This document shows positions 25,089 to 52,990 of a DNA stretch of 64,000 bases, one piece after another. The notes below the pieces were generated by a model. The model made no database searches and was not told the DNA's origin. It saw only the letters and a program-made list of their open reading frames with translations. Position 1 is the stretch's first letter, and each line of letters opens with the position of its first letter. The position numbers and the translations under genes were made by a program. The stretch is taken from positions 151,645,748 through 151,709,747 of the forward strand of contig NC_080418.1 of assembly GCF_029873635.1 (NCBI RefSeq), given 5' to 3'. This DNA is from Malania oleifera. Taxonomy: Eukaryota > Streptophyta > Magnoliopsida > Santalales > Ximeniaceae.

Positions 25089-25544
25089 GGTGGGGTTGAT
25101 GTAGATGTTGCTGGTGTAGTTGTATCAGGTTCCCCCACTGACTACCGCATTTATGTCATCAACCTCTAGCCAATCAAGTCTTGACCAATTCTACTCCTCG
25201 ACTTGGATCTCCCCCTGAAGAGAAGAATTGGATACCAAGGAAGAGTAGAACATGTCGGATTCCAGGAACGTTACATCCATAGTTACATAGGTGCGTTTAG
25301 TGATCGGGTCATAGCACCGATGTCCTTTTTTATGTACGACATATCCTAGAAAAAGACATCAAACAACACATGGATCAAGTTTATTATGTTGATCCTTATG
25401 GAGATGTACAAAAGCTACACATCCAAAGACCCGAGGATGAATCATTAATATTGTAGGCAAGCACACATAAGTTGAAAAAGCCTGTAAAGGTGTCTTAAAA
25501 TCCAAAATTTTAGATGGCATACGATTGAGGAGGTGCATGGGTGT
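25089..25544 (-). pseudogene. Copia integrase C-terminal relic (segment left of C)
   Basis: The minus strand encodes HLLNRMPSKILDFKTPLQ and then RVFGCVAFVHLHKDQHNKLD (25540-25370), followed by GYVVHKKGHRCYDPITKR and a stretch ending near 25089 directly against the LTR. These are Ty1/copia integrase C-terminal motifs. RT, RNase H and the polypurine tract that should precede a 3' LTR are absent, so the element has a large 3' internal deletion. Confidence 0.87.
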
Positions 25545-26571
25545 TGTAATAACCCAAAAAAAAAGAAGAATAGGAATAATAGTCATTTAGTTAGTATCAA
25601 AACGAAAATGTTTCTCTGTTAGGATCCTTGATTCCATGTTTGATGCCTAAGAAAAACTTTGTCTAAGCGAGTGCTCAGAGACCATTGCGGCTTAGTCGCT
25701 CCCTAGAGGTCGGCCTGGTCAAAATGAAATTTCATAGGATAAAACAAGGTAGACACTGTTTGTATAAGTAATTAAGTACATAAAATAATGTTTGACTGAC
25801 ATAGTTTGAAGAAATATATGATAAAATAATAATAATATAGGTATCTTATGCGGGGCCCACAAGACTGTGTGGGAGCCACATGAGTCCTGAAGTCGTGTGG
25901 AGGTTCACATGAGTCTCGAAACTGTGTAGGGCTCATAAAATCGTATGAAGACCATTGAAGTTACCTAAGACCCACTTGGGTCTCAAAGTTGTGTGGGGCC
26001 CACAAGACCACGCGGGGTCGACATGAGTTTTCAAAATTCGAATTAAATTATTTAAAAAAAAACTAAAATATAGCTTAAAAGTAATAACAATGATTTAAAA
26101 AATAAAAAAAATAAAAAAAATTATCTAATTAATTAATTAAATAAATTAATTAAAAATTAATTAAATGGAAGTGTCGGCAAGCACTCCCATTTCCCCCACA
26201 TGATCCTCATCCCCATCCCATACTCAACCCATACCTAACTCATTCCATGCTTATTCTTTAATTTTAAACAAATTATAATTTCACCCTTCTTCCCACACTT
26301 TTACAAATTTTATTTCTTCCCCAAAATTTTCCTATAAATAGTAAGCTCTCAGCCTTCATTTTTCACAAAAATTTTCAAAGGAAGAGAAGGATTAGTGAGT
26401 GAGAGAATTAGTGGTGGAGAGAGAATTTTTGAGTAAGTTTGTAATAACCCAAAGAATAATGGTATTTAAATAATAAAGAAAGGGAAATGGAAATCGAAAA
26501 TAGAAGGAGGCAGTGCGTTCCTCGACGACATTGCATTTTGGAAAGGATAAATCCTAGGAATTTTTCAGTTC

Positions 26572-26758
26572 CTCGTCGACGAATACAAAGGACTCGTCGA
26601 TGAGGGTATAACAGGGGCTCGTCAACGAGGAAATACCGAAGGGATGATTTTGGGCTTTCTGAATTTTGTTGACGAAGGGGAGAGTTCGTCGACGAATTTT
26701 GTATTGACCTCGTCGATGAGGTGACGTGGCTCGTCGATGAAGGCCGTAGTTTAAATAG
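26572..26758 (+). promoter_or_regulatory. TCGTCGACGA array and TATA-like box of the solo LTR
   Basis: Copies of TCGTCGACGA and variants (26573, 26593, 26688, 26711, 26731) with TGACGTGG at 26721-26728, followed by TTTAAATAGG. The layout is the same as in LTRs I and A. Confidence 0.55.
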
Positions 26759-27364
26759 GCCTAAAACTCATTTTTGGTCGAAATATCTTGCACAACACCT
26801 CTCTCTCTCTCCTACTCTTCGGCCTCTCCTCCTTCTCTCTTCAATTTCGGGCCAGATTTCCACCAGTTTGATGATCTAAAGCCACCACAGCGCTCTTAGG
26901 AAAGTTCTCTGCAAGTCTGCCGGAGCGGATCGTCAGTGGGGCTGAAGTGGAAACCATCCCAAATCCAAAGTAAGGCTTTCTACTCAATATTTGGATTTTT
27001 GACAGTTGTAGAAAGTGTTATACGCGTAAAAATACTAAACATTAATTTTGGGGAATGTTGTTTCCAGGGTGTTGAGTTTGGAACCCTGCAGGTGCGGGGC
27101 AGATTTTCTTAGGGGCTTTTCAGGAATCAGGTAAGGGGATAAACTAAGCTAGTAATTTATGAAAAATATGTATATTGTTATAGCATTTTATTTCAGGAAA
27201 ATAAATATATTTATATACGAATTATATTTGGAAAAATACTGTTGAAAATTATGGTATGTTGAATATACGAAAAACCTGTTAGTGTGGTATTAGTAGAAAT
27301 TATTATGAAATATTATTTTCTAAAAATGTGATTATGATACAGATTTTTATAATGAAAAATCGGT

Positions 27365-27650
27365 GTATGGGCTGAGATTTTTATATATATTTGCCGGCGT
27401 ATGGGCTGAGTTATGTGTTTGATTTGCTAGCGTACGAGCTGAACTATGTATATGATTTTTTTAGCGTATGGGTCGTGCTATGATGTGATTTGCTAGCGTA
27501 CAGGCTTTGCTATGATATGATTTGCTAGCATACAAGCCAAACTATGGATGTGATTTTCCAGCGAACGGGCTGCGCTATGATTTGCCAGCGTACAGGGTGA
27601 GCTATAGTAAAATGTGTAATATCGGCGTACGTGCCGATGATTTTCATGAT
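27365..27650 (+). repeat. GCGTACGGGCTG tandem array
   Basis: Seven or eight imperfect units of about 30-40 bases with core GATTTGCYAGCGTACGGGCT followed by GAGCTATG-like sequence. Individual units have drifted. The reversed counterpart is at 18515-18690 in LTR G. Confidence 0.82.
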
Positions 27651-30025
27651 ATACATATATATGCAAAATCACATGATTGATTTGATAATTAACGTAATAA
27701 AATATCCATGTATCATAGTTTTAGTATATGTATATGATATCAGAACCTAATTGGCTTGGTCTAGGCTAGCACTTGCACGGTACCGTTACTATGTGTCCAT
27801 GGTCTTCATGATCATGATATCTGTGTTAACGTCGTTGTAGGGAGTGGTGTGAGATTGGATGGTCGATGTGGTTTTTAAGAAGTGTGTGAGCGCCCCTGGT
27901 GTACGAACCAGGTCTGGTAGAGCCATCACACTTACAGACTGTACTTTTGACTTGGCAATGGTCAGCCAACCATTGTCAGGTCCTGCCTTCGGGCCACACA
28001 ACCCAGTCATGTGAGGGTAATACATGACAACAACCAGCTAACCTACCAGGAATGTTTTTGTATTATTATTATATGAGTTGAGATATGTTTATGAAAATGC
28101 ACTATGGTCTGCCATGTTTCGATTATATATATGTTTTCCTAGATTTGACAAAACAGTTACTGAATAGGTTATGTATAGTATATGTGTAACACAGAATACT
28201 CATGTTTCCACACACTAGTATTAGTTTATTTCCCTTATTAAAAGGTGTCTCGCCCCAAAATTTTATAAATATTTCAGGAGCCCCAGATAGAAGAGCGGGA
28301 AAAGCCCTACTGATTTAGAACTGTTTGTCTGCCCTCTTTGAAGGGTAAGTATTTTAATAGGGTCAGTTGTATTTTGTGGAAATGGCCCTAAGACATCTTT
28401 TTGGGTTGAGTGTTGTGTGTATACATACAGTGATTGTAGTAACTCTGGTATTGTGATGTATGATGTAATGAGATGTATATGAATGTTTGTTTCCTGCTGC
28501 ATAGGCTTCCGTTTTGTGTTATGATATATCCCTGGTACCCACGGATCCAAGTGGATTATGATCTGCCGAGTTGGGATTTGTCATATTTATTTTATTATTA
28601 TATTTTGAATAAAATAATGTGAAAATTAAGCAGGTCGTCACAAAGTTCTCACTCGCCCACTCTTTCCGATCTCATTTCTCAGGGATAGTCATTGTGTTCG
28701 TGGCACAAGATAAAAGAAGAGGTAGGTAAATTTGATTATGTTAGAATTTTATTTAAAACTTATACCCGAGTTTTTTTTTAAAGTAAATTTCGACTATGTT
28801 AGTTTCTTTCATAAAATTTCTCTGAATCTATTTTTACACATTTAATTATACCAGTTTTATTTTTAATATATTTGCATTTATTTTTGGGTTAAGAAATGTT
28901 CTAATCCACTCGGGTAATTTTCAGCATTTCTTAGTATTCAAAAATAAATAAATAAATATTTTTAACATAAAAATTGCGTGACATAAGTTTATTTCTACGT
29001 TGCATGTTTCATGAAAATATGAGTAAAGATGAGATTTTCACGATATTATTTTAAATTGCATAAATTATAATAAGATGATTTTAAAACCCTTTATGACAGC
29101 GAAAGTTCAAAGTTACAGATTCTCGGTACCGCAACTTAAAGTTTAAACGGATCAGAGTGCACCCACACTATTTACATAGTGGTTATTTATGTTAGTAGAT
29201 TTCTCCTGAGTGCACACCTAGTTCCGGACCAGGACTTAATAAGGAAAATCTCACTTAAAGTTTACGTACGTTGATTTAGTTTGGTCGGCCAGCCAGCCGC
29301 ACAACCCAGTCATGGGGGTAAACATGACTTACGGCTAACAGGCCTAAGTGTGGTTTTTACAATATATATTTATACATATTTAATTACGTGTACAAGATTA
29401 TTGATGATTTGAAGGAAAAGTATAAGTTTACATGAAATTGGTCATTCTTGTCCTTAAATGACGATCTAAAGAAAACGTATAAGGAAAGGTATATGCATGT
29501 ATATCATTAAATATTTTTATAGTTTTAAAGTTAAAAGTTTAATTTAACAGTCACAGTATATGGTTATTAAATTTTACTATTATAGTTGATGGTAAAATTT
29601 TTATGTAGAAATTTTTAAATTTACATTTATTTTAGAAGTAGTTTTGAAGTTATAGTATTAAATATTGTTTTATGAAATTTTTAAAAGAACTCATTTTTGC
29701 CACACACTAATAATAATCTTATTTACTTACTGCGTGTCGTCTCACCCTAATCATATTTTTACATTTCAGATAACTCTGAAGGACATATCGGAAATTAGGC
29801 AAAGCAAGTATGCGGGTGGGAATAGAATAGAAAAATAAAACTTGATTAGAAATATTAGTATGATGTCAGATATTTATGCTTATGTAATTTTTCTTCTTTT
29901 GAAATAAATGATTATAATATGGATAATTAGCCCTCTGATTTAATAATAATTGAGTTTATTTACTTCCGCTATAAGTCAATGGTAAAAAGTAAATATCTCA
30001 GACCCTTCGAGGTTGGAGTATTACA

Positions 30026-30042
30026 TTTGGTATCAGAGCGAT
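30026..30042 (+). other. Primer binding site of element C
   Basis: TTTGGTATCAGAGCGA directly follows the 5' LTR end; it matches the 3' end of initiator tRNA-Met. Confidence 0.93.
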
Positions 30043-30210
30043 AGGTTATAAGTTCTGTAGGCTTTAAAAAATAATTTGACCAAAGCATAGGCATAACCAT
30101 GATGTGGGTATGATCGGGTAAATTAGGATGTTTTTCTTTTGTCTATAACTTTGATTAAACTTCAAAGATAAGGTAATGATTTTAAAATAACGTTATTCCT
30201 TTCCTTCAGA

Positions 30211-31325
30211 ATGGACTTGAAGAACAACGTAAGTGTTGAAGGAAACGAGAATAATGTGGGGACTTGCAATGGAGAAGACATCAATACTACTACGGTATTG
30301 CGTGATATGGCACAAGTCATGGTGGAACTTCTGCGGAACTCCAAGGAATGGAATGGTCCACCAACCTATGAAGGTTGTACGGTGGAATAGTTTAATCGAA
30401 TGCACCCTCTGACTTTTGAGGGAAAAGCTGATCCAATTGCTACAAAAGATTTGATGCAATTAGTGGAAGAAATACTATGAGTCCTTCATTGCAAGGATGA
30501 ACAAAAGGTGTTATATGTTGCCTACAAAATGACTAGTGAGGCCAAACGCTGGTGGAACTCGAAAAAGTTACTCCTAGAGGAAAGACCAAATCCAACAATC
30601 CTTACATGGGAGCATTTTAAGGAAGTCTTCTTTGAACAATTTTTCCCCAAAACCACTAGAGATGCTAAGGCCAGGGAATTTTTGGAGTTAAAACAGGGAA
30701 ATATGAATGTACAACAATATGCAGAAAAATTCATTGAATTATCCCGTTTTGCATCATATTTGGTTTCGCATGAATCAAAGAAAGCTCGAAAATTTGAAGA
30801 AGGTTTGAACTCAAGGATTTATGAAATGGTAACAGTATTCGAGCTCGAAGGATTCTTCAATTTGGTAAACAAAGCAACGAAGGCAGAAGAAAGTCTACAA
30901 AGGAGTGCTGAAATATTCAACTAGAGAAAAAGGCCCATGCCACAAGGGTTTCACTCTGGTAGAAATCAAGGACCTTGGAAAAGGAGCAACAACACAACAA
31001 TGTGGGGCAAGGGCAAACAACGAGAAATCCAAATAATGCACAAAGAACCCCTTGTCCAAAATGCAACAAAATGCATAGGGGTCAGTGTCGGGTCAGATTA
31101 GGGGTTTGTTATCAGTGCGGTAAACCTTGTCACATGCAACGAGAATGCCCACAGAACAACTACAACCAAAATCAACAAAGAAGAGGCAACCAGGCACCTC
31201 AAAACAACAATCAACAGAACACCGCTCAGGCAGGTGTCTATGCCCTCGCTCCAGGAGATTTCGAAAGTACTAATGATGTGGTGACAAGTATTATTCCCAT
31301 ATTCTCCAAGAAAGTAGTGGTATGA
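30211..31325 (+). pseudogene. Gag of element C (broken)
   Basis: Starts MDLKNNVSVEGNENNVG at 30211. Stops interrupt it near 30388 and 30478. The long open stretch 30508-30924 contains KMTSEAKRWWNSKKLL, HFKEVFFEQFFPKTTRD and KFIELSRFASYL, the usual capsid order. A stop at 30922 and a frameshift place the nucleocapsid in another frame (30975-31325), with CPKCNKMHRGQC, a CCHC knuckle CYQCGKPCHMQREC and a Gln/Asn-rich tail. Unlike A, C keeps the segment between FFEQFF and ELSRF, so that segment is the family norm. Translation of a full Gag is not possible. Confidence 0.92.
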
Positions 31326-33283
31326 TTTGATTCTGGAGTCACACACTCCTTTATATCTACAGCTTTTGTTAAAATATATGGGGTAGAGACTCAGCCATTA
31401 GAAACTGAGTTAGCCATTAGAAACTGAGTTATCTGTGGTTACACCAACGAGAATCTCGGTAGTATGTAGAAAAATACTTAAAGGTTACCCAATTTGTGTT
31501 AAGGAAAGAATACTACCATCTAACTTGATAGTATTTAGTGTGCATGGGTTTGACGTAATTCTTGGGATGGACGGCTAGCTTTTAGCTATGCTAGTATAAA
31601 TTGCTATAATAAGGAGGTGGTGTTTAAACCTCCTGGAGAGCAAGAATACAAGTTCAATGGAACTCGTGTATGCCCTTCACCACAAATATTGTCGGCTATC
31701 CAGGCAAAGAGATTACTCTTGAATGGATGTCAGGGGTACCTAGCATGGGTGGTGGAGGCACCAAAGGAAGAATTAAAGCTCGAGGATATCCCAATAGTAA
31801 GAAAATTTTCGGATGTATTCCCTGAGGATTTACCTAGGCTACCTCCTGACCGCGAAATCGAGTTTGTTATCGACCTACTACCAGGGACGACACCGATATC
31901 TAAAGCTCCATACAGAATGGCACCGATAGAATTGAAAGAACTAAAGGAACAATTACAAGAGTTGCTGGACAAAGGATTCATCAAACCCAGCGTGTCACCA
32001 TGGGGAGCACCGGTACTATTAGTTAAAAAGAAAGATGGATCGATGAGAATGTGTATTGATTATCGGGAAATAAATAAAGTGACCATTAAGAACAAGTACC
32101 CAATACCTCACATATATGACTTGTTTGATCAACTCCAAGGAACACAAGTCTTCTCTCAAATTGACCTCCGATCAGGGTACTATCAAGTGAAAATCAAATT
32201 AGAAGATGTTCCAAAGACTGCATTCCGAACAAGATATGGTCACTATGAATTCTTAGTCATGACATTTAGACTGACCAATGCTTCTGCTGCCTTTATGGAC
32301 CTTATGAATAGGGTATTTCGTGAATATCTAGATCAATTTGTGGTGGTATTCATTTATGATATTTTGATTTATTCAAAAAGCCCCCAGGAACATGAGAACC
32401 ATTTGAGGCTACTATTCAAAGTACTAAGAGAAGAGAAACTCTTTTCCAAACTTATGAAATGCGAGATCTGGCTAGAAAGAGTTGCATTCTTAGGGCACGT
32501 GATATCTAAGGATGGTATTTCTGTGGACCCAAGTAAAATAGAGGTAGTAGTGGATTGGGCGAGACCGAAGAATATTCATGAGATCAGGAATTTCTTAGGT
32601 CTGGCAGGATATTATTGTCGATTTGTGAAGGGTTTTCTAAAATATCTTGTCCTCTGACGAGATTGAAAAGAAAGAATGTGAAATATGAGTGGACTAATGA
32701 ATGTGAGCAAAGCTTTCAAGAATTAAAGCAACAACTCGTCACTGCCCCGGTGCTGACAATTCCATCAGGAGAAGATGCTTTTGTGATCTACAGTGATGCA
32801 TCTTGAAAAGGGCTCGGGTGTGTATTAATGCAACAAGGGACGGTCATTGCATATGCTTCTCGATAACTTAAGGAATACGAGAAGAATTATCCAACAAACG
32901 ATTTGGAATTAGCAATTGTGGTTTTCGCACTAAAGATCTGGAAACACTATCTCTATGGTGAAAGGTGTGAGATTTTCACAGACCATAAGAGTCTCAAATA
33001 CTTTTTCATGCAAAAGGAATTAAACATGAGACAGAGAATACGGTTAGAATTAATCAAAGATTATGGTTGCACTATCAACTATCACCCGGGAAAAGCCAAC
33101 GTGGTAGCAGATGCATTAAGTCAAAAGTCAATGAATGCGTCAGTCTCGGCAATGGTGACCCAACATCAAATTATGATGGACCTGGAAAGATTTGGTGTGG
33201 AAATAGTGGAAGGAAATCATCAAGCTCTCATTGCTAATATGATAATCCAACAGACCTTACCGGAAAAGATTAAGGCTGCATAG
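31310..33283 (+). pseudogene. Protease, reverse transcriptase and RNase H of element C (dead)
   Basis: Protease: FDSGVTHSFIS near 31328 keeps the catalytic DSG but is preceded by a stop, and a 19-base tandem duplication (31393-31430) shifts the frame. RT: open from 31617 to 32657 with [39 protein letters not shown] and [12 protein letters not shown]. The active site reads FIYDIL instead of FIDDIL; the first Asp codon is TAT at 32355-32357. RNase H: after a frameshift near 32640, IYSDAS then a stop, [16 protein letters not shown] and VADALS, so the acidic residues are present but the frame is broken. Confidence 0.94.
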
Positions 33284-34690
33284 ATGGAAAATGCAGAGCT
33301 AGTGAAGGTTATGGGTAAGGTACGAAGTGGACTGAAGGGAGACTTTAACATCTTTAACGATGGAGTTTTGAGATAACTAGGTTGTGTGTGCCGAATGACA
33401 AAGATATCAAAAGAACAATCTTAGAAGAAGCTCATCGATTTCTTTACACAGTGCATCCGGGAAGCATGAAGATGCTTCGGGACTTGAGAGAGTCTTTTTG
33501 GTGGAATAACATAAAGAGGGAGATTGCACAATTTGTGGAACAGTGTCTTACTTGTTAGCAAGTAAAGGCTGAGCATTAGAGACCAGCAGGACCACTGCAA
33601 CCAATCCATATTCCCGAGTGGAAATGGTAGCACATCTCCATGGATTTTGTAATTGGGCTGCCTCCAGCACTCCATGGACAGAACACCATCTGGGTGGTTG
33701 TTGATCGTCTAACGAAGACCACTCACTTTATTCTAATCAAAGTTAACTACTCTATGACCAAGCTTGTAGAGTTATATGTTCAAAAGATAGTTAGACTATA
33801 TGACGTGCCAGTGTCTATAGCATCAGATCGAGATCCACGATTCACATCACAATTCTGGAAGAGTTTGCAAAGAGCCTTGGGATCACAACTTACTTTCAGC
33901 ACGACATTTCATCCTTAAGATGATGGACAATCGGAGAGAACCATTTAGATATTGGAGGATATGTTGAGAGCTTGTGTACTGGATTTCAAAGGAAGTTAAA
34001 TTCAGTATCTGCCGTTAGTTGAGTTCGCCTATAATAACAATTATCAGTCCAGCATAGAGATGACACCGTATGAAGCGTTATATGGTCGAAAGTGCCAATT
34101 CCCATTATATTGGGATGAGGTTGGCGAACGACGAATTTTAGGTCCTAAGATTATACAAAGGACCTCTAAGGAAATTAAGCTCATCCGTTACAAAATAAAA
34201 ACCACTCAAAATCGGCAAAGGAGCTATGCGAATACCCATCAGCGTGAGTTGGAGTTTGAAGTGGGGGATAATATATTTTTGATAGTCACTCCAATGAAAA
34301 GAATCATGAGGTTTGGGAAAAAGGGCAAACTAAGCCCCAGGTATATTGGACCGTACGAGGTATTGGAAAAGATTGGTCCAGTTGCTTACAGAATTGCCCT
34401 ACCTCCTGCACTATCGAGAATTCATGATGTATTCCATGTCTCAATGTTAAAGAAGTACGTTCCAGACCCTTCTCATGTGATAAGTTATAAGTTGTTAGAA
34501 GTTAGTGACACTCTATCATATGAAGAAGTACCAATCCAGATTTAAGACGTGAAGGATTAGGAGTTGAACACAAAGAAAATTTCGATGGTAAAAGTGCTCT
34601 AGCACAACCATGACATTGAGGAAGCATCTTGGGAACTAGAAGTAGAAATATGCCAGAAATACCCACATTTTTCAACAATAGCAGGATCGG
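33284..34690 (+). pseudogene. Integrase and chromodomain-like tail of element C
   Basis: The zinc-binding region (33420-33560) is badly decayed. The core is readable from 33640: MDFVIGLPPALHGQNTIW, SDRDPRFTSQFWKSL (about 33820) and GQSERTI (about 33926), so all three DDE acidic positions are present, unlike in element I. Stops occur at 33916 and 33946. From 34060 it is open again: MTPYEALYGRKCQFPLYWDE, RELEFEVGDNIFL, GPYEVLEKIGPVAYRIALPP and MLKKYVPDPSHVISY. A stop after VPIQI precedes the chromodomain-like VKVLWHNHDIEEASWELE (about 34590-34640). Confidence 0.93.
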
Positions 34691-34770
34691 ATAAAAGCAC
34701 AACATTATACAAGGTACTCATTTAAATTTTTGTAAATTTAGAGAACGAAATTTTTATAAGGAGGGGAGGA
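34691..34770 (+). other. Element C 3' tail and polypurine tract
   Basis: GAACGAAATTTTTATAAGG then GAGGGGAGGA abut the 3' LTR. The sequence GTACTCATTT about 34713 and what follows are shared with element D's tail (40265-40330, minus strand). Confidence 0.85.
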
Positions 34771-37043
34771 TGTAATAACCCAAAAAAAAAAGTAGAATAA
34801 TAATAATGGTCATTTAGTTAGTATCAAAATAAAAGTGTTTCCCTTTTAGGATCTTTGATTCCATGTTTGATGCCTAAGAAAGACCTTTTCTAAGCGAGTG
34901 CTCAGAGACCATTGTGGATTAGCCGCTCCCTAGAGGTCGGCCTGGTCAAAATGGAATTTAATAGGATAAAATAAGGTAGACATTGTTTGTATACGTAAAC
35001 AAGTACATAAAATAATATTTTGACTGATATAATTTGTAGAAATATATGATAAAATAATAATAATATAGGTATCCTATACAAGACCCATAAGATTGTGTGG
35101 AGCCGACATGAGTCCCAAAGCCGTGTGGAGGTTCACATGAATCTCGAAACTGTGTAGGGCTTATAAAATCGTATGAGAACTATTGGAGTTACGTAGGACC
35201 CACTTGGGTCTCAAAGTTGTGTGGGGCCCACAAGACCACGTAGGGCCTACATGAGTTTTCGAAATTCGAATTTAATTATTTTAAAAAACTAAAATATAGC
35301 TTAAAAGTAATAATAATGATTTAAAAAGTTATAAAAAAAAATTCTCTAATTAATTAATTAAGTAAATTAATTAAATGGGAGTGTCGGTAAACACTCCCAT
35401 TTCCCCCACATGATCTTCATTCCCATCCCACACTCAACTCATACCTAGCTCATCTCATGTCCATTTTTTAATTTTTTTTTTTAAAATAATTTCACCCCTC
35501 CTTCGCTACTTTTACAAATTTCATTTCTTCCCCAAAATTTTCCTATAAATACGAAGATCACAGCCTTCATTTTTCATAAAAATTTTCAAAGTAAGAGAAG
35601 GATTAGTGAGTGAAAGAATTAGTGGTGGAGAGAAAATTTTTGAGTAAGTTCTCACTCACTCACTTTTTTGGATCTCATTTCTTAGAAATAGTCATTGTAT
35701 TCGTAGCACAAGGTAAAAAAAGAGGTAAGTAAATTTGATTATGTTGGATTTTTATTTAAAATTTAAGCCCGAGTTTTTTTTTTAAAGTAAATTTCGATTA
35801 TGTTAGTTTCATAAAATTTCTCTGAGTCTATTTTTATACATATTTAATTATACTAGTTTTATTTTTAATATACTTGCATTTATTTTTGGGTTAAGAAATG
35901 TTCTAATCCACCCGGGTAATTTTCAGCATTTCTTTCTATTAAAAATAAATAAATAAATATTTTTAACACAAAAATGGTGTGACATGAATTTATTTTTACA
36001 TTGCATGTTTCATAAAAATATGAGTAAAGATGAGATTTTCACTATATTATTTTAAATTGTATAAATTATAATAAGATGATTTTAAAACCTATGACAATGA
36101 AAGTTCAAAGTTACAGATGCTTGGTACCGCAACTTAAAGTTTAAATGAATTTGAATGTACCCACACTATTTACAGAGTGGTTATTTATGTTAGTAGATTT
36201 CTCCTGAGGGCACACCTAGTTCTGGATCAGGACTTAATAAGAAAAATCTCACTTAATGTTTACGTACGTTGATTTAGTTTTGTCGGTCAACCAGCTAGGT
36301 TCAGTCTTCGAACCGTACAACCTAATCATGGGAGTAAACATGACTTACGGCTAATAGGCCTAAGGGTGTCTTTTATAATATATGTTTATACATATTTAAT
36401 TACGTATACAAAGTTATTAATGATTTGAAAAAAAAATATAAGTTTACATAAAATTGGTCATTCATGTCCTTAAATGACGATCTAAATAAAACGTATAAGG
36501 AAAGGTATATGCATGTATATCATTAAATATTTTTATAGTTTTAAAGTTAAAAGTTTAATTTAACAGTCACAGTATATGGTTATTAAATTTTACTATTATA
36601 GTTGATGGTAAAAGTTTTATACAAATTTTTTTAAATTTACATTTATTTTAAAAGTAGTTTTGAAGTTATAGTATTAAATATCATTTTACGAAATTTTAAA
36701 AAAAAAACTCATTTTTGCCACACACTAATAATAATCTTATTTACTTACTGAGTGTCGTCTCGCCCCAATCATATTTTTACATTTCAGATAACTCTGAAGG
36801 ACATATCGGAAATCAAGCATAGCAAACATGTAGATGGGAATAAAATAGAAAAATAAAGCTTGATTAGAAATATTAGTATGATGCCAAATATTTATGCTTA
36901 TGTATTTTTTCTTCTTTTGAAATAAATGATTGTAAGATGGATAATTAGCGCTCTGATTTAATAATGATTGAGTTTATTTACTTCCGCTGTAAATCAATGG
37001 TAAAAAGTAAATATCTCAGACCCTTTGGGGTTGGGGTATTAGC
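34771..37043 (+). mobile_element. 3' LTR of chromovirus C
   Basis: 2273 bases, uninterrupted. It preserves the pre-insertion state of the solo-LTR site (TGAGTAAGTTCTCACTC near 35640). The terminal bases ATTAGC are mutated from ATTACA. Contains GTGTGGGGCCCACAAGACC at 35219 and a TATAAATA box at about 35544. Confidence 0.92.
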
Positions 37044-37579: not shown

Positions 37580-37757
37580 TATAATGTCCCGAGCCTCTAC
37601 GTAGGTCCGGAGAGCTACTAATCCATTCATTTACTTGATAATTCACATTCTAATATCATGTACACAACGAAAAACATAATTATAATCTTCCAACAAATAT
37701 AATACTAGAGTTTTCTAAATTTATTTACACACCATAATAAATCATGCATCCACCTAT
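37580..37757 (-). mobile_element. LTR E, left segment
   Basis: Starts TATAATGTCCCGAG, a mutated form of TGTAACGCCCCGA, and matches B at 12567-12740 up to CATGCATCCACCTAT, where element D begins. The other part is 45684-48133. Confidence 0.8.
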
Positions 37758-39893
37758 TGTAAGGACCCAAACCCGAATGGGTTCCTATATATAATTTTTT
37801 TAGTGGATGCAAATAAATCTAAATTATTTTTATTATCAGAGCACTAATTAACTTTATTATAAATATATGTCTCAACTATTAAAATGTAAATTTTTAAAAT
37901 TCTAAAATACACAAACATATTCTAAATTGTATTATGCTAAATTTTATTCTACTCTACTATTTCTATTCCCGCCCATGTACTTGTTACGCCAGATTTCTGG
38001 TATACTCTTCAAAATGATCTGAAATGTAAAATAATGATTGTGGTGAGATGACGCTCAGTAAGTAATAATAAGATTATTATTAGTGTGTGGCCAAAATGAG
38101 CTTTCATAATACTTTAAATTCATAAAATAATATTTAATACTATAACTTCAAAACTACTTTAAAAATAAATGTAAATTTAAAAAATTATGTATAAAACTTT
38201 TACTATCATCTATAATAGTAAAATTTTATAATCATATACTATAACTGTTAAATTAAACTTTTTAACTTTTAAAACTATAACTATAATACTCAATCATGTA
38301 TATATATACTTTTTCTAATTAAAATATTATCTAGGCACAAAAATGCCCCCGCTCACATAAACATATATTTTTCTTTCAATTCATCAATAGTTCTGTATAC
38401 GCAATTAAATATGTATATATACGTACTATAAAAATCACTTTTAAGTCTGTTAATCGTAAGTCATATTTACTCCTATGATTGGGTTGTATAGTCCGCATAC
38501 TAGACTTAACTGGCTGGCCGACAAAACTAAATCAACGTACATCATCATTAAGTGAAATTTTCCCTATTAAACTTTGATCCGAACCAGGTGTGCACTTAGG
38601 AGGAACTCATTACCATATAAAATCACTTTATAAACAGTGTGGGTGCATTGTGATCCATTTAAACTTTAAGTTGCGATACTAAGCATTCGTAATTTTTTGT
38701 ATCATCTGTGCCATAAGGCTTTTTGAAAATATCTCATTATAGAATTTATTAAATTACAATAATATAATGAAAATTTCATTTTTACTCATATTTTTAAGAA
38801 ATACACAACGTAAAAAAAAATTAACTCATGTCATTTTTAACTCATATTTTCATGAAACATGCAATGTAAAAATAAATTCATGTCACACAATTTTCGTGTT
38901 AAAAATATTTTTTTGAATAAAAATTAATGTTGTAAAACATTCAAGGGATTTAGAACATTTCTTAACTCAAAAATAAACATAAGTATATTAAAGATAAAAC
39001 TGATACTATTAAACATGCGTAAAAAATAAATTTGGGAGAATTTTATGAAAATAATTAGCAAAATCAAAATTTACTTACAAATAAATTCGGGTAAAAATTT
39101 TAAATAAAATCTAACATAATCAAATTTACTAACAAATTAATTCGGATATAAATTTTAAATAAAAATTTAACATAATCAAATTTACTTACAAATAAACTCG
39201 AATATAGATTTTAAATAAAAATCTAACATAATCAAATTTACTTACCACTTACTTAACCTTGTGCTACGATCACAACTAATATCTTTAAAAAAAAAAATGA
39301 AATCGGAAAGAGTGGGTGTGTGAGAATTTTAATTATAGTAAAAATTCTCCCTCCACTACTAATTCTTTTACTCACTAATCTTTTTCTTGCTTTGGAAATT
39401 TTTTTGTAAAAAATGAATGTTAAGAGTTTCATATTTATAGGAAAATTTTGGGAAAGAAAATTAAATTTATAAAAGTGTGGGGAGAGGGGTGAAATTATAA
39501 ATTTTTTAAAATTAAGGAATGAGCATGGATGGGTTAGGTATGGTATGAGAATGAGGATCATGTGAGAGAAATGAGAGTGCTTGCCAACACTTCCATTTGA
39601 TTAATTTTCTAATTAATTAATTAATTAATTTTAATTTTGTTTAAATTATTGTTATTATTTTTAAGCTATGTTTTAGTTTTTTTTTAAAAAAAATTAATTA
39701 AATTCGAATTTCAAAAACTCATGTGAGCCCCATATGGTCTTGTGGGTCCCACATAACTTTGAGACCCAAGTGGGTCCTACATAATTTCAATAGTTCTCAT
39801 ACGATTTTATGAGTCCTGCATAGTTTCGAGACTCATGTGGACCCACACGACTTTAGGACTCATTTGGACCCCATATATGATACTTATATTATA

Positions 39894-39926
<33 letters not shown>

Positions 39927-40213
39927 TTACCATGTATTTCTACAAATTTTGTGTGTCAAAACACTATTTTATGTATATGTACTTATTTACGTGTACAAAT
40001 AGTGTTTATCCTGTTTATCTTATGAAATTTCATTTTAACTAGGCTGACCTCCAGGGAGCGACTGAGCCGCAATGGTTTTTGAGCACTCGTTAAGATAAGG
40101 TCTTTATTAGGCATCAAACATGAAATTAAGGATCCTACCAGAAAATGACTTCTAAATTGATATTAACTTAATGATCATTTTTATTATTTTATTATTATTA
40201 TTATGCTTTAATC

Positions 40214-40254
<41 letters not shown>

Positions 40255-40264
40255 GGTCATCACA
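37758..40264 (-). mobile_element. 3' LTR of element D
   Basis: About 2.5 kb. In plus coordinates it runs from TGTAAGGACCC to GGGTCATCACA (minus start TGTGATGACCC). The site TATGTATATGTACTTATTTAC near 39970 is the empty counterpart of the SINE insertion in the other LTR. (ATT)n occurs at 39892-39925 and (AT)n at 40216-40250. Confidence 0.9.
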
Positions 40265-40600
40265 TTCTCCCCTCCTTATAAAAATTTCATCCTCGAATTT
40301 GCTAACTTAAAATGAGTACTGTATAATTGGTTGCGTTATTTGAAAGAGTAAATTGATGAACGATTTGGTTAAGTCTTAGAATAGATTGAGGGTCAATTTG
40401 GCGAAATATTTTATTTTGAGAACTGAAGTGTGAATCGTCGATCTAATAGAGGTTGAAAGGGAAAAGAAATTCAGAAGATGTGGAAAAGAATATTTTTATA
40501 TATACATATATATATTATACATGTCTTATAAATTAAAAATATATATAAAAAACAAAATGAAACGAAATCTGGCCTTTAGAGCTTTAGTTCAACACCAACA
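40265..40600 (-). other. Element D 3' tail and polypurine tract
   Basis: The minus strand ends GAGGATGAAATTTTTATAAGG then AGGGGAGAA before the LTR, and contains ATTATACAGTACTCATTTT, matching C's tail near 34705. The part nearest the ORF (40430-40600) is AT-rich and unassigned; it could be the 3' untranslated region of the captured gene. Confidence 0.8.
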
Positions 40601-40601
40601 T

Positions 40602-41303
40602 CTATCGAAGTGCTAGCGGTGTTATTACTAACTGCTTGAGTTCTTTCTTGGCGGAATTGACCTCTTGTAATGTTACCGGCTTAGGTCGGAAAAAGGGAGA
40701 GAATGTTTGTTTGTTCAATGAGGAAAAACTGTCCTCTTCCCCTTGTGGCTTTTGGTGGGGATGCTTATAACAAGCCATCAGTGGAACATACATGAGTCTC
40801 AACGCGTTTTGGATCTCTTGGCAATGGTGGAGTAGGTTAGCATTATCACAAACCCTTATTGTGGTGACTCCGATGCTGCCATTGTAAGGGTTATGGTTCA
40901 TTGGTGTGATGTTAGTTGTAAGTTTCATAGACGAAATATTGTCGATAGGGAAGAGGGTACAAGTGGTTAGGAAAATGGTTGGGGCACTGCTCGGGGCAGT
41001 AGTGGCGGAGGAAGTAAGATGGATAATTGGTGGGGCAATAGTTAAAATAGTGACTTTTTCAACTGATCCTCGCTTACGCCTACGGTTTTCAAACCAAAAG
41101 CGTACATTTTTCGACTCAATTGGTCCATACCGTCGGAGTTGTACTGCAAGCAAGATAGCCCACTCCACAAAAAGGAGTTCCCCTTGACTGCTGCAGAAGG
41201 CTTCCTCTAAAATCTCTAACTGTGCCTTATTGGGTTTCCATCTTTGGATTGCCGATCTAGTGTTGTTCTTAGCAACTTGGGGAGTTGGGTGGTTTGACAA
41301 CAT
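40602..41303 (-). CDS. WUSCHEL-related (WOX-like) homeobox protein captured in element D
   Basis: Intact 233-codon ORF from ATG at 41301-41303 (an in-frame TTG six codons earlier is less likely as start). Residues about 16-79 form a homeodomain: RWKPNKAQLEILEE is helix 1, LRRYGPIESKN precedes the recognition helix, and NVRFWFENRRRKR is helix 3 with invariant W70, F71, N73 and R75. The RYGxIExKNV..WF wording is that of WOX family DNA-binding proteins; Gln before Asn73 is Glu here, and the region 37-54 departs from known members. The C-terminal two thirds is Ser/Thr/Pro-rich with QKPQGEEDSFSSL; no clear WUS-box was seen. The reading frame crosses the whole homeobox without an intron. It lies in sense orientation in D, replacing gag-pol. 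Whether it is expressed is unknown. Confidence 0.82.
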   Translation of the reverse strand: MLSNHPTPQVAKNNTRSAIQRWKPNKAQLEILEEAFCSSQGELLFVEWAILLAVQLRRYGPIESKNVRFWFENRRRKRGSVEKVTILTIAPPIIHLTSSATTAPSSAPTIFLTTCTLFPIDNISSMKLTTNITPMNHNPYNGSIGVTTIRVCDNANLLHHCQEIQNALRLMYVPLMACYKHPHQKPQGEEDSFSSLNKQTFSPFFRPKPVTLQEVNSAKKELKQLVITPLALR

Positions 41304-41439
41304 TTTCGAGTAATGAGACAACTAGGAGAAAAATTACAAAGAGGTAATCTCTGCAAACTGAAATGTGGTTGTTCAAGATGGTAGAAAGTTGTGATACTTA
41401 GAGTTCGAGGAGGACAGACCCTTTTTATAGAGAAATGGT

Positions 41440-41775
41440 CGCATGTTGTGGAAATCGAGAGAGAGCGACGTGTGCCACGAGAATCGAGAGAGAGCGACTC
41501 GTGTCACGGATATCGAGCGACGCTTTTAAATCGAGGGAGAATGACGCGTGCCGCGAGAATTGAGAAAGAGCGACGGGCGTCACCGATATCGAGCGATGCG
41601 TTTTACAAAAATCGAGTGAAAACGATGTGTGTCATGAAAATCGAAAGAAAGCGACGCGTGCCTCGAGTGACACGTTGTTTAAAAATTGAGGGAAAGCGAT
41701 ATATGTTGTGGAAATCGAGAAAAAGTGACACGTGCTGCGGAAATCGAGCGAGCGACGCGTATTACAAAATTTTTG
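41440..41775. repeat. GC-rich tandem array AATCGAGAGAAAGCGACGCGTG
   Basis: Roughly ten imperfect units of about 30-38 bases built on AATCGAGRGARAGCGAC followed by RCGTGYCRYGAG, with a higher-order period near 76 bases (GTCACSGATATCGAGCGA at 41503 and 41579). It lies directly upstream of the homeobox ORF on the sense strand of D and is far richer in G+C and CpG than its surroundings. Origin is unknown; it may be promoter-proximal sequence of the captured gene or an expansion inside the element. Confidence 0.85.
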
Positions 41776-41849
41776 GACTCAAGGTTTTGTTCATGTTTCT
41801 ACATCTTTATTAATGTTTTAATTATAATTAATTTCGTACTCAAATCACC

Positions 41850-42009
41850 ACTTGGGTGGGTGGCCTAGTGGTAAGGAACCAGCCGTGCATCCATGTGATC
41901 GCGGATTTGAGTCTCCACTATGTCCAAGTGGTCTCATGCCCTAATCTTGCTTCGGGGATAAGTAAGTTATAGCCGATGATTTCGACCCATGAGGCTATTT
42001 TTTTTTTTA
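41850..42009 (+). mobile_element. tRNA-derived SINE (Au-like) in element D interior
   Basis: GGGTGGCCTAGTGGTAAGG supplies a pol III box A (TGGCCTAGTGG) and GGATTTGAGTCTCC about 35 bases later a degenerate box B. The body then runs about 100 bases to a poly(T) tract at 41998-42009. This layout matches plant Au-type SINEs, which are tRNA-related and end in T-rich sequence. Length is about 160 bases. No convincing TSD was found by eye. Confidence 0.72.
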
Positions 42010-42039
42010 TCATATAAAGTTTATATATATATATATATA

Positions 42040-42395
42040 TATAAATAATATAGTAAAATTTAAGTTGTATTAACTTTTATAAATTTATACAAAATAAAAA
42101 TTAAAGATTCCGTCAAAATTTGTACTCCTAAATCAAACATGAATATTTGATGGGAATTGAATATGCAATGAATATATATTCATATTTAACTTGCACATGC
42201 TAAGGGTTTTTTTTTTTGAATTTAAATATAATATAGCAACATTTAAATTATGTTTAATTCCTTATAAACTAATACAAAATTAAAATTAAAGAATTTATCA
42301 AAATATATATTCCTAAATTAAGCTTGAATGTATTGATGAGAACTGAATATGTAATGTAAAAGTACATATTTGTATCTAACTTGTATATGCAAAGA
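42040..42395. repeat. Direct repeat of ~181 bases in element D interior
   Basis: Two diverged copies (from 42043 and 42224) share AATATAATATAG, AATACAAAATAAAAATTAAAG-like and CCTAAAT..A.CATGAATAT-like blocks and end in TATGCAAAG or CATGCTAAG. No coding potential. Confidence 0.7.
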
Positions 42396-42829
42396 AATTT
42401 TTGGTAAATCCAGATTTCAGAATAGAGTGTTTATTCATATCTATTTGTATATGTAACATCTCTAAATTTAGTAGGGTCAAATGTGTTATTTCTTATATTT
42501 TTAGTGAAAATAATAAAAATGAAAATAAATAAATCTCAGATATTATTATATTTTATATATATAAAAATTTTAAATTATTATTGCATCTGACAATTAATTA
42601 TGAATCATCAATATTGGTACGTGTTTCTACAAACATAAATAACATATTTAAACTAATTAACGTGTCATAAACAATACTACCATTTTTCTTAGAAAATTTA
42701 GAATTGTTACCTGTCCTTAGTAGCCTTCACATTAATCTCATTTCTTTCAATGTTACTGTCTTTATAATCCATTATTAAACAATGATCAAATGTTATTTTA
42801 AAATCATAAATCTATTGTTAACGTACAAT

Positions 42830-42956
42830 AATATAACAAACTAAAAGAAATATCCTAAACTACCCAATCCTATCTAAACCATGTTTTATGCCTAAGTTCT
42901 GATAAAATTTATATGTTAGAGTATGCAGAACCTATATCCTATGCTCCAATACAAAT
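42830..42956 (-). other. Element D leader and degenerate primer binding site
   Basis: The minus strand right after the 5' LTR reads TTTGTATTGGAGCATAGG, a decayed version of TTTGGTATCAGAGC, then GGTTCTGCA and AGGCATAAAACATGG, paralleling C's leader at 30026-30105 (GTTCTGTAGG, AGGCATAACCATG). Retention of leader plus tail is what packaging and reverse transcription in trans would require. Confidence 0.72.
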
Positions 42957-45599
42957 TGTAAGGACCCGAACCCGAATAGGTTCCTACATAAAATTTTTTT
43001 GTGGATACAAATAAATCTAAATTATTTTTATTACAATAGCACCAACTAACTGTATTACAAATATATGTCTCAACTATTAAAATATAAATTTCTAAATTCT
43101 AAAATAAACAAACATATTCTAAATTGTATTATGTTAAATTTTTATTCTACTCTGCTATTTCTATTCCCGCCCATGTATTTGTTATGCCAGATTTCTGGTA
43201 TATCCTTTAAAGTGATCAGAAATGAAAAATAATGATTAGGATGAGACGACGCTCTGTAAGTAAATAAGATTATTATTAGTGTGTAGCCAAAATGAGTTTT
43301 CATAATACTTTAAATTTGTAAAATAATATTTAATATTATAACTTCAAAACTGCTTTAAAAATAAATGTAAACTTAAAAATTTATGTATAAAACTTTTACT
43401 ATCATCTATAACAGTAAAATTTTATAATCATATACTATAACTGTTAAATTTAACTTTTTAACTTTTAAAACTATAACTATAATACTCAATCATATATATA
43501 TACTTTTCCTTATTAAATCATTATCTAGGCACAAAAATGCCCCCGCTCACATAAACATATATTTTTATTTCAATTCATCAATAACTGTGTATACGTAATT
43601 AAATATGTCTATAGTCGTACTGTAAAAACCACCCTTAAACATGTTAATCGTAAGTCATGTTTACCCCCATGACTAAGTTGTGCGATCCGAATACTGGACT
43701 TAGTTGGCTGGCCGATCAAACTAAATTGACGTACATCATCATTAAGTGAGATTTTCACTATTAAACACTGATTCGACCCAGATGTGCACTGAGGAGAAAT
43801 CCAATACCATATAAATCCACTTTGTAAACAGTATGAGTGCACTGTAATCCGTTTAAACTTTAAGTTGCGGCACTGAGCATTCATAATTTTTTGTATCGTC
43901 TGTGCCATAAGAGGTTTTTGAAAATATCTTAATATAGAATTTATTGAATTACAATAATATAATGAAAATATCATTTTTACTCATACTTTCATGAAATATG
44001 TAAAAAAAAAAAAAATTAACTCATGTCATTTTTACTTATATTTTCTTGAAATATGCAACGTAAAAATAAACTAATGTTACACAATTTTCATGTTAAAAAT
44101 ATTTTCTTGAATAAAAATTAATACTGTAAAATACCCGATGGGTTTAGAAGATTTCTTGACTAAAAAATAAACGCAAGTATATTAAAGATAAAACTGATAT
44201 AGTTAAACATGCGTAAAAAATAAATTTGGGAGAATTTTATGAAAATAATTAGCATAATCAAAATTTACTTATAAATAAATTTGGGTAAAATTTTTAAACA
44301 AAAATCTAATATAATCGAATTTACTTACAAATAAACTCGGATATAAATTTTAAACAAAAATCTAACATAATCAAATTTACTTACAAATAAACTCAAATAT
44401 AAATTTTAAATAAAAATATAATATAATCAAATTTACTTACCTCTTACTTAACCTTATGCTACGATCATAACGAATATTTTTTAAAAAAATGAGATCGGAA
44501 AGAATGAGTGAGTAAGAATTTTAATTATAACAAAAATTCTTCATCCACCACTAATTCTTTCACTCACTAATCCTTCTCTTCCTTTGAATTTTTTTTTTTT
44601 TTTATGAAAAATGAATGTTGAGAGCTTCCTATTTATAGGAACATTTGAAGGAAGAAAATTGAATTTATAAAAGTGTGGAAAGATGAGTAAAATTTTAATT
44701 TTTTAAAAGTAAGGAATGAACATGGATGAGTTAGGTATGATATGGGAATGATGATCATGTGGGAGAAATGGGAGTGCTTGCCGACACTCCCATTTGATTA
44801 ATTTTTTAATTAATTAATTAATTACATTTTTTTAAATCATTATTATTTTCATTATTTTTATTTTTAAGTTATGTTTTAGTAATTTTTTTTTTATTCGAAT
44901 TTTGAAAACTCATGTGGACCTCATATGGACTTGTGGGCCCCACGCAACTTTGAGACCCAAGTGGGTCTTATGTAACTCCAATAGTTCTCATAGGATTTTA
45001 TGAGTCCTACGTAGTTTTGGGACTCATGTGGACCCCACACGAATTCGCTACTCATGTGGGCCCCACATAAGATACTTATATTATTATTATTATTTTACCA
45101 TGTATTTCTATAAATTATATTTGTTAAAACATTATTTTATGTATATGTACTTATTTTTTTTGGGTACGTCCCGGGTGTCCACTACCGTCAACGATGTCCG
45201 TTTTACGGTCTGTCGCACCGGCCTGTGACTAATCCCACGCCCTGTAGTATGGCCCCACACACCACAGAGGGGTAAATTCAGGCGCGCAGCCACAGGAATC
45301 GAACCCGGGGTGGGAAGATCCCTGACCTCGTGAAAGGCAACCCCTGGAGTCCGCCCTGCCAACTGAGCTCAGCCCTGGGGGCTATGTATATGTACTTATT
45401 TACATGTATAAAGAGTGTCTATCCTGTTTATCTTATGAAATTTTATTTTGATTAAGCCAACCTCCAAGGAGCGACTGAGCCGCAATGGTCTTTGAGCACT
45501 AGTTAAGACAAAGTTTTTCTTAGGCATCAAATATGGAATTAAGGATCCTACATAAAAAGAACTTTTGAATTGATATTAACTTAATGACCATTTTTATTA

Positions 45600-45642
<43 letters not shown>

Positions 45643-45678
45643 GTACTTTAATCGTATATATATTTTTGGGTCATCATA
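42957..45678 (-). mobile_element. 5' LTR of element D (with SINE)
   Basis: TGTAAGGACCC to GGGTCATCATA in plus coordinates; the final ATA is changed from ACA. Without the SINE and its duplication it is about 2.48 kb, close to the other LTR. Differences from the 3' LTR are roughly one base in ten in the first 300 bases compared by eye. Contains GTGGGCCCCAC at 44934 and 45056 and (ATT)n at 45605-45643. Confidence 0.9.
45157..45382 (-). mobile_element. tRNA-derived SINE inserted in the 5' LTR of D
   Basis: On the minus strand the element starts GCCCCCAGGGCTGAGCTCAG, with box A TGAGCTCAGTTGG (45358-45372 in plus coordinates) and a near-perfect box B GGGTTCGATTCC (about 45295-45306), and ends in a short poly(A) (plus-strand T run at 45154-45160). 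It is GC-rich in an AT-rich host. The flanks TATGTATATGTACTTATTT are repeated exactly (45138-45156 and 45383-45401), a 19-base TSD typical of LINE-driven target-primed insertion. The other D LTR has the empty site. Confidence 0.95.
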
Positions 45679-45683
45679 CCTAT

Positions 45684-52682: not shown

Positions 52683-52990
52683 TGTGTAAGGACCTCCTTG
52701 TATTATTTTACTGACTTCCTTCAATATTTTGTAATTATGTGTTTAATTGGTTATTTTTGTAAAATATGTGTTTGTAGTAGTAGTGGGTTAAGTGTTGGAT
52801 ATGCAAGTTGATGCGCAATTATTTTAATTTCCCTCTTTGTCTATATCTCTCTTTTGTATGCTCTCTTCTTCTTCGTTCTTCTCCTTCTTCCTCCTTATTT
52901 TTCTAGTTTTCCCCCTAATTCTCTTAATTTTCTCTCTGTATCTAAATTCTATTACTTGTCCTACATCAATTTGGTATCAGAGCAAACCAC
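52683..52990 (+). mobile_element. Short copia LTR remnant with primer binding site
   Basis: TTTGGTATCAGAGC at 52970-52983 is a perfect tRNA-Met PBS. It is preceded by a possible LTR of about 286 bases, from TGTGTAAGGACCTCC (52683) to CCTACATCA (52968), with TTCTTCTTCC-rich sequence as in small plant copia LTRs. The following 300 bases show no recognisable gag. Probably a truncated copia element. Confidence 0.45.

Follow-up and report, generated by a model that had tools for sequence, protein, structure and literature searches.

A stretch of 64,000 nucleotides of Malania oleifera (hereafter the window) contains, between the long terminal repeats (LTRs) of a retrotransposon that we call element D, an open reading frame (ORF) with a homeodomain. 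How such a frame came to lie where gag-pol would be expected, and whether it does anything there for the element or for its host, are the questions that this locus raises. The answer that we favor, and hold with considerable confidence, is that element D belongs to a non-autonomous family in which a captured WUSCHEL (WUS)-type mRNA has been mobilized in trans and amplified, that the family encodes what is likely to be a small WUS-type repressor, and that the copy in the window is a relic.

Element D and its homeobox reading frame

The features needed for the argument are given below; the polypurine tract was identified from the nucleotides themselves.

25544..36848 (approximate limits), plus strand: related gag-pol element with similar LTRs and leader, 5' LTR interrupted
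37753..37757, no strand: left target-site duplication, CCTAT, the identical 5-mer abutting both outer LTR ends
37758..40264, minus strand: 3' LTR of element D, 2.5 kb, in sense TGTGATGACCC...GGGTCCTTACA, pairing with the 5' LTR
40265..40277, minus strand: polypurine tract, in sense AAGGAGGGGAGAA, immediately preceding the 3' LTR
40602..41303, minus strand: WUS-type homeobox ORF, 233 aa (239 aa counted from an upstream TTG at 41321)
40684..40704, minus strand: DNA of the WUS-box-like motif (VLSLFPT in other copies), out of frame with the homeodomain in the window copy
41070..41246, minus strand: homeodomain, ORF residues 20-78, helix 3 WFENRRRKR (Pfam, PDB search and structure model)
41304..42938, minus strand: leader of element D, about 1.6 kb, without similarity to the gag or pol proteins of the window
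41452..41758, minus strand: tandem repeats with 76-bp and 29-bp units, upstream of the ORF
42939..42956, minus strand: degenerate primer-binding site, adjoining the 5' LTR
42957..45678, minus strand: 5' LTR of element D, 2.7 kb, pairing with the 3' LTR
45679..45683, no strand: right target-site duplication, CCTAT, the same 5-mer as on the left

Element D is an LTR retrotransposon, with its LTRs, target-site duplication, primer-binding site (degenerate) and polypurine tract all present in the window. The interior (42956-40265) lies between the 5' LTR (45678-42957) and the 3' LTR (40264-37758), and the element reads in the ORF's own direction, so that the ORF is in sense; an earlier note on this DNA had described a sense-oriented ORF between the LTRs, and the layout of LTRs, target-site duplication, polypurine tract and primer-binding site bears this out. 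The primer-binding site TTGGTATCAGAG, which we take to be of the plant tRNA-iMet type, is present in six of nine other copies displayed, and a simple pattern scan displayed a polypurine-like context in 13 of 20 other copies. When the interior was compared at the DNA level with the rest of the window, the only match was that of the leader to 30022-30258. The two LTRs are 88.3% identical over 2,474 aligned bases (K2P 0.129); at a rate of 1.3e-8, as used in PMC5664825, the element would be about 5 million years old, if that rate is valid for this tree species.

Some further observations concern the same DNA. The tandem repeat units (about 76 and 29 bp) in the leader just before the ORF read ATCGAG...GCGACGCGTG, and window position 52685 holds another instance of the D-type LTR terminus TGTAAGGACC, which hints at a further related LTR. 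A search for WUS sites in the window LTRs (37758-40264 and 42957-45678) found TAAT-type and TGAA-type counts at chance. Sites of the CACGTG/CATGTG type exceed those in shuffles in the LTRs of element D (z = 2.6 and 4.0), with a weaker excess in the LTR of the gag-pol element (z = 2.2).

The ORF comprises 233 codons on the minus strand (41303-40602), from an ATG at 41303 to a stop that ends at 40602, and the plus strand across 40602-41303 is full of stops. It encodes a WOX/WUSCHEL-type homeodomain. Pfam returns Homeodomain (PF00046) at E = 1.6e-5, which exceeds the gathering score, and the best PDB matches are the WOX proteins STENOFOLIA (1.4e-6) and WUSCHEL (2.6e-6), the next homeodomain reaching only 0.34. 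In the AlphaFold model (built from an alignment that included WOX proteins) residues 21-80 have block pLDDT of 85-96, and the homeodomain has three predicted helices (26-38, 46-59 and 64-82); Foldseek ranks 6ry3, the homeodomain of WUS, first for this model (TMt 0.87, rmsd 1.2, E = 2e-3), with no match reaching 1e-3. The uninterrupted 233-codon homeodomain ORF that had been proposed is thus confirmed by Pfam, PDB and structure, on the minus strand, and the protein search against WOX gives a significant homeodomain match with WUSCHEL and STENOFOLIA on top. Relative to other copies, the frame in the window is shifted near codon 200, and the WUS-box-like motif and the EAR-like end are both lost by this frameshift: the window copy is a decaying relic from which two repressor motifs have been removed.

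An amplified family and the origin of its cargo

We searched the genome of M. oleifera (1,494,336,490 bases in 510 contigs), for which PMC10199050 gives 1.5 Gb, 13 pseudo-chromosomes and an LTR-element content of 68.1%. With the window ORF as query (1,406 candidates), all 150 scored candidates match at E <= 6.7e-83, the window's own included; the 149 other window-type loci, whose identity to this query is 66-79%, show that it did not arise by chance, and 34 of the 150, counted by eye, are stop-free. A query with a young ORF (L095; 1,025 candidates) gave 150 of 150 scored loci at 84-100% identity over at least 226 of 230 residues, 122 of them stop-free over the 230-residue match and 28 with stops. 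No locus is common to the two lists of 150, which puts the number of loci with the ORF at 300 or more. From the protein identities in the second list, and from a pair of young copies that differ at 11 of 690 positions, we infer that this second subfamily is younger than the window type. The young query L095 itself came from a search with the Sarracenia WOX5 protein (P0109), in which WOX-like genes ranked first and numerous open copies of the element ORF, L095 among them, followed.

The ORF is the cargo of an amplified, non-autonomous LTR family in Malania oleifera. A D-like interior with the ORF was found in all 20 copies fetched at 10 kb, and a tblastn search (1e-5, eight window proteins) found no match to gag or pol within that interior in any of the 20; the gag-pol pieces of three copies (L015, L018 and L023) sit before the 5' LTR, outside the D-like interior. 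An LTR pair lies within the fetched stretch in 16 of the 20 copies, or 17 of 21 with the window included, and LTR divergence across these 17 elements spans K2P 0.063-0.132. Among young copies, a 2.4-kb stretch from one of them contains a D-like leader, the ORF and the start of the 3' LTR, and four neighboring pairs lie 5.6-5.8 kb apart, a distance that fits an LTR plus an interior without gag-pol. The earlier proposal that an LTR element captured a WOX-like cellular gene and amplified it as cargo therefore holds, with at least 300 loci, and the genome-wide search rules out both single-copy status and an ancestral locus. Amplification would have extended over a long time, given the LTR K2P of 0.06-0.13 among sampled window-type elements and a second subfamily that is younger.

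In the protein database the ORF alone, used as query, has one relative, LOC131144967 of Malania oleifera (P0001; 77% over 168 residues). Residues 59-227 of this NCBI gene model match C1:79445174-79445680 (L050, L089) at 99%, and the model can be assigned to the transposon ORF family; its first 58 residues, unmatched there, are probably upstream exons of the model. A further copy, at C8:90177980-90178579, lies inside an unusually long open frame of 1,069 codons.

A candidate for the type of helper that the D family would need is the gag-pol element at 25544..36848, which is classed as Ty3 type from its domains (Retrotrans_gag, RVT_1, RT_RNaseH and SH3_Tf2-1). Its LTR pieces are about 70-82% identical to those of element D and its leader about 70%, a similarity that suggests mobilization of the family in trans by the proteins of such a related element.

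The exon structure of a host gene and the anatomy of the element suggest that an ancestor took up a spliced WUSCHEL-type homeobox mRNA where gag-pol would lie. In the host WOX5-like gene the homeodomain (C10:5137710-5137961) and the C-terminal part (C10:5138661-5138867) are separate matches 0.7 kb apart, whereas in the element homeodomain and WUS box share one frame, as fits capture from a spliced mRNA, which we consider likely. The earlier note had looked to the open homeobox for a sign of cDNA capture; the two host homeodomains that we read (L096 and L097) are themselves uninterrupted, so that an open homeobox is uninformative on this point, and the part of the claim that stands is the likely spliced mRNA, the telling intron lying between homeodomain and WUS box and not within the homeobox.

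The phylogeny of plant WOX homeodomains bears out the unity of the family and leaves it outside every WOX group sampled. In a midpoint-rooted tree of 22 rows and 60 columns, whose placements are unsure, the retrotransposon rows form one group (100/100) whose branch is long (1.11 changes per column), this group falls in none of the WOX groups sampled, and a parent was not identified among the host genes, two of which were read. A likeness to WUS lies in the spacing: 49 residues separate the two tryptophans in all six retrotransposon rows and both WUS rows, whereas each of the 14 remaining WOX rows has 48. To host L097 the retrotransposon homeodomains have 23-26 of 60 identities. Separately, five homeodomain matches with 47-53% identity to WOX5 lie within about 30 kb at C1:44656754-44686242, and the one that was read (L096) is WUS-like, which suggests that WUS-like genes have multiplied here in tandem in Malania.

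What the intact protein may look like was judged from six young ORFs (L092-L095, L098 and L099). All six keep the homeodomain (Pfam Homeodomain E = 9.4e-9 for L095 and 1.6e-9 for L094) and contain LxLF, with LxLFP in five but without the T of the WUS box TLxLFP, and all six end in VDVDLRL, in which V replaces the first L of LxLxL. The two tail patterns, which were set post hoc, occur jointly in 1.5e-5 of shuffles of one tail; in a profile comparison the homeodomain aligns and the tail does not. The predicted young proteins have the WUS/WOX5-type layout of homeodomain, WUS-box-like motif and EAR-like end. WUS itself combines a homeodomain of 66 residues with a TLPLFPMH box and a C-terminus of EAR-like type (PMC7214502); the WUS box is the mark of the modern WOX clade, and the EAR-like motif marks the WUS and WOX5 subgroups, AtWOX7 excepted (PMC5977200). 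Among 81 older copies the box is readable in 42 (38 in frame with the homeodomain, four out of frame) and unresolved in 39, the window included, and core homeodomain residues are widely retained (F69 and F71 in 81/81, N73 in 77/81, W70 in 71/81). From these motifs, we predict that young ORFs are transcribed from the LTR and that their protein would most likely act as a small DNA-binding repressor of the WUS type.

Selection on the ORF and competing explanations

Purifying selection on the ORF is not established, since most tests look neutral and one codon-model subset does not. The explanation that the captured gene is passive cargo, without effect on host or element, its open copies being open through youth, has in our judgment an even chance of being right. 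For the older copies we read 80 of the 150 window-type loci, chosen by rank and partly for open frames, and dropped columns with few letters (fewer than 60 copies in the shared/private and codon-position tests, less than 70% for fixed differences, and fewer than 14 copies in the interior comparison). Private variants among the 81 older copies have N/S 301:101, as expected without selection, and fixed differences between old and young copies are near-neutral on small counts (14:4, 10:3 and 7:3 at three thresholds). The ORF evolves no more slowly than the non-coding interior (51/690 versus 73/1311 columns differ between old copies and L092, p = 0.12; 10/338 at the LTR start), and the share of window-type loci that are stop-free lies inside the 13-53% obtained in neutral simulations over K 0.06-0.13 (13-22% keeping all 233 codons at the window element's age), in which stops only and not indels were simulated.

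Passive carriage accounts less readily for the retention of the homeodomain, LxLF and the C-terminal LRL in six of six young ORFs, or for the net frame, which is kept despite three fixed deletions of 9, 11 and 19 bases. If indels struck the ORF as often as the LTRs, a stretch of 699 bases would stay free of them in only 2.5% of cases, although the window ORF itself did take one. A codon model with fitted transition bias gives omega 0.46 (p = 6e-4) for four young ORFs and 0.32 (p = 1e-4) for their tail, p values being uncorrected with six subsets tried; for all six young ORFs omega is 0.78 (p = 0.18). Variability is slightly higher at third codon positions (permutation p = 0.03), and fixed differences in the homeodomain are scarce (0-1), a scarcity absent in a second comparison (10 in 183 columns).

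Two candidate signals of constraint were dropped. The fall in N/S from private to shared variants (2.98 to 1.70, p = 7e-4) recurs when this DNA is read in five control ways, with p < 0.05 in four; and pairwise dN/dS of 0.26-0.28 for L094 against L092 and L095 (0 of 2,000 simulated nulls) was not upheld by further young ORFs, the nine pairs that involve two of these giving 0.42-1.00 and off-frame controls reaching down to 0.27. Of the suggestion that the ORF may have been under constraint, what speaks for it is the codon model of four young copies; against it, private changes are neutral, and control frames and non-coding controls show no slower evolution of the ORF.

That the ORF is instead a functional accessory gene that aids the spread of the element, for instance through activity in the shoot stem cells from which gametes derive, seems to us unlikely, and passive cargo ranks ahead of it. 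Such a role would suit the layout of homeodomain, WUS box and EAR-like motif, which is that of the class controlling stem cells (PMC7214502), as well as the large share of open young loci (122/150) and the codon-model signal in one subset; the selection tests conflict, however, and omega for the homeodomain is 0.82-0.83, not different from 1 (0.83, p = 0.60, in the four young ORFs). In its strongest form, which we offer as a speculation a little less probable still, the WUS-type protein would be a working accessory gene that acts in meristems, from which the gametes descend, so that a larger fraction of insertions is inherited; the element would then parallel, in a plant, the retroviruses with growth-control transcription factors.

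Neither of the remaining explanations weighs much against capture and amplification of a WUS-type mRNA. An unrelated helix-turn-helix ORF of the retroelement might be suspected from the low identity to WOX homeodomains (18-26 of 60 positions, 30-43%), but WUS and STENOFOLIA come first in both sequence and fold, well ahead of other homeodomains, and the tail motifs agree, so that this is very improbable. Least credible of all, to the point of being negligible, is a host homeobox gene family each member of which was hit by nested LTR insertions: several Malania WOX-like genes do lie outside the element family, some close together, but the boundaries common to copies contradict it, since all 20 ten-kb copies have one interior in common and in 17 of 21 the ORF is flanked by an LTR pair.

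Comparison with known systems

Acutely transforming retroviruses are defective LTR elements that carry a host growth regulator, transduced transcription factors among them, and depend on a helper. The Malania family differs from them in being a plant retrotransposon, presumably spread vertically, with no known phenotype. Our literature search, conducted in part on titles and the openings of abstracts, found no report of a WUSCHEL or homeobox gene captured by an LTR retrotransposon, nor of the Malania case.

Among plants, maize Bs1 is likewise an LTR element in which transduced parts of host genes give a new ORF; as described in PMC13317346, its segments come from three host genes, none of them a full-length ORF, whereas the Malania family carries one developmental transcription factor with all main motifs at no fewer than 300 loci. 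The retroduplicated NLR genes in LTR elements of pepper, potato, tomato and rice are also spliced host genes in mostly non-autonomous elements: according to PMC5664825, about 72% lie in elements without gag or pol, with introns lost relative to the parent. These number 86-123 per pepper genome, with purifying selection reported (PMC5664825), in contrast to a single homeobox cargo that is the sole recognized ORF of one family present at 300 or more loci. Genes captured by LTR elements in rice and sorghum (PMC3726574) are again host genes lying between LTRs and copied by retrotransposition, many of them neutral in rice; the main text of that paper does not mention homeobox, homeodomain or transcription factor. 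With WUSCHEL/WOX5-type proteins, as characterized in PMC7214502 and PMC5977200, the Malania ORF shares the homeodomain and the WUS-like homeodomain spacing, and its young copies have a WUS-box-like motif and an EAR-like end; it differs in a diverged homeodomain (WFEN for WFQN), in V or I for T in the box, in a tail that is otherwise unalignable, in having one frame and in being transposon-borne.

The principle is accordingly not new, being that of Bs1 and of the retroduplicated NLRs; the type of cargo and its scale are. Where the cases compared, as those accounts present them, involve pieces of genes (Bs1), genes of immune receptors (NLRs) or gene sets of mixed kind, the cargo here is a near-complete stem-cell transcription factor. 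Whether transposons enlist developmental regulators as a route to the germ line is a question to which this family lends itself as a natural test, and so is the consequence for a tree of carrying WUS-like ORFs by the hundred, which might affect host WUS in a dominant manner or through silencing.
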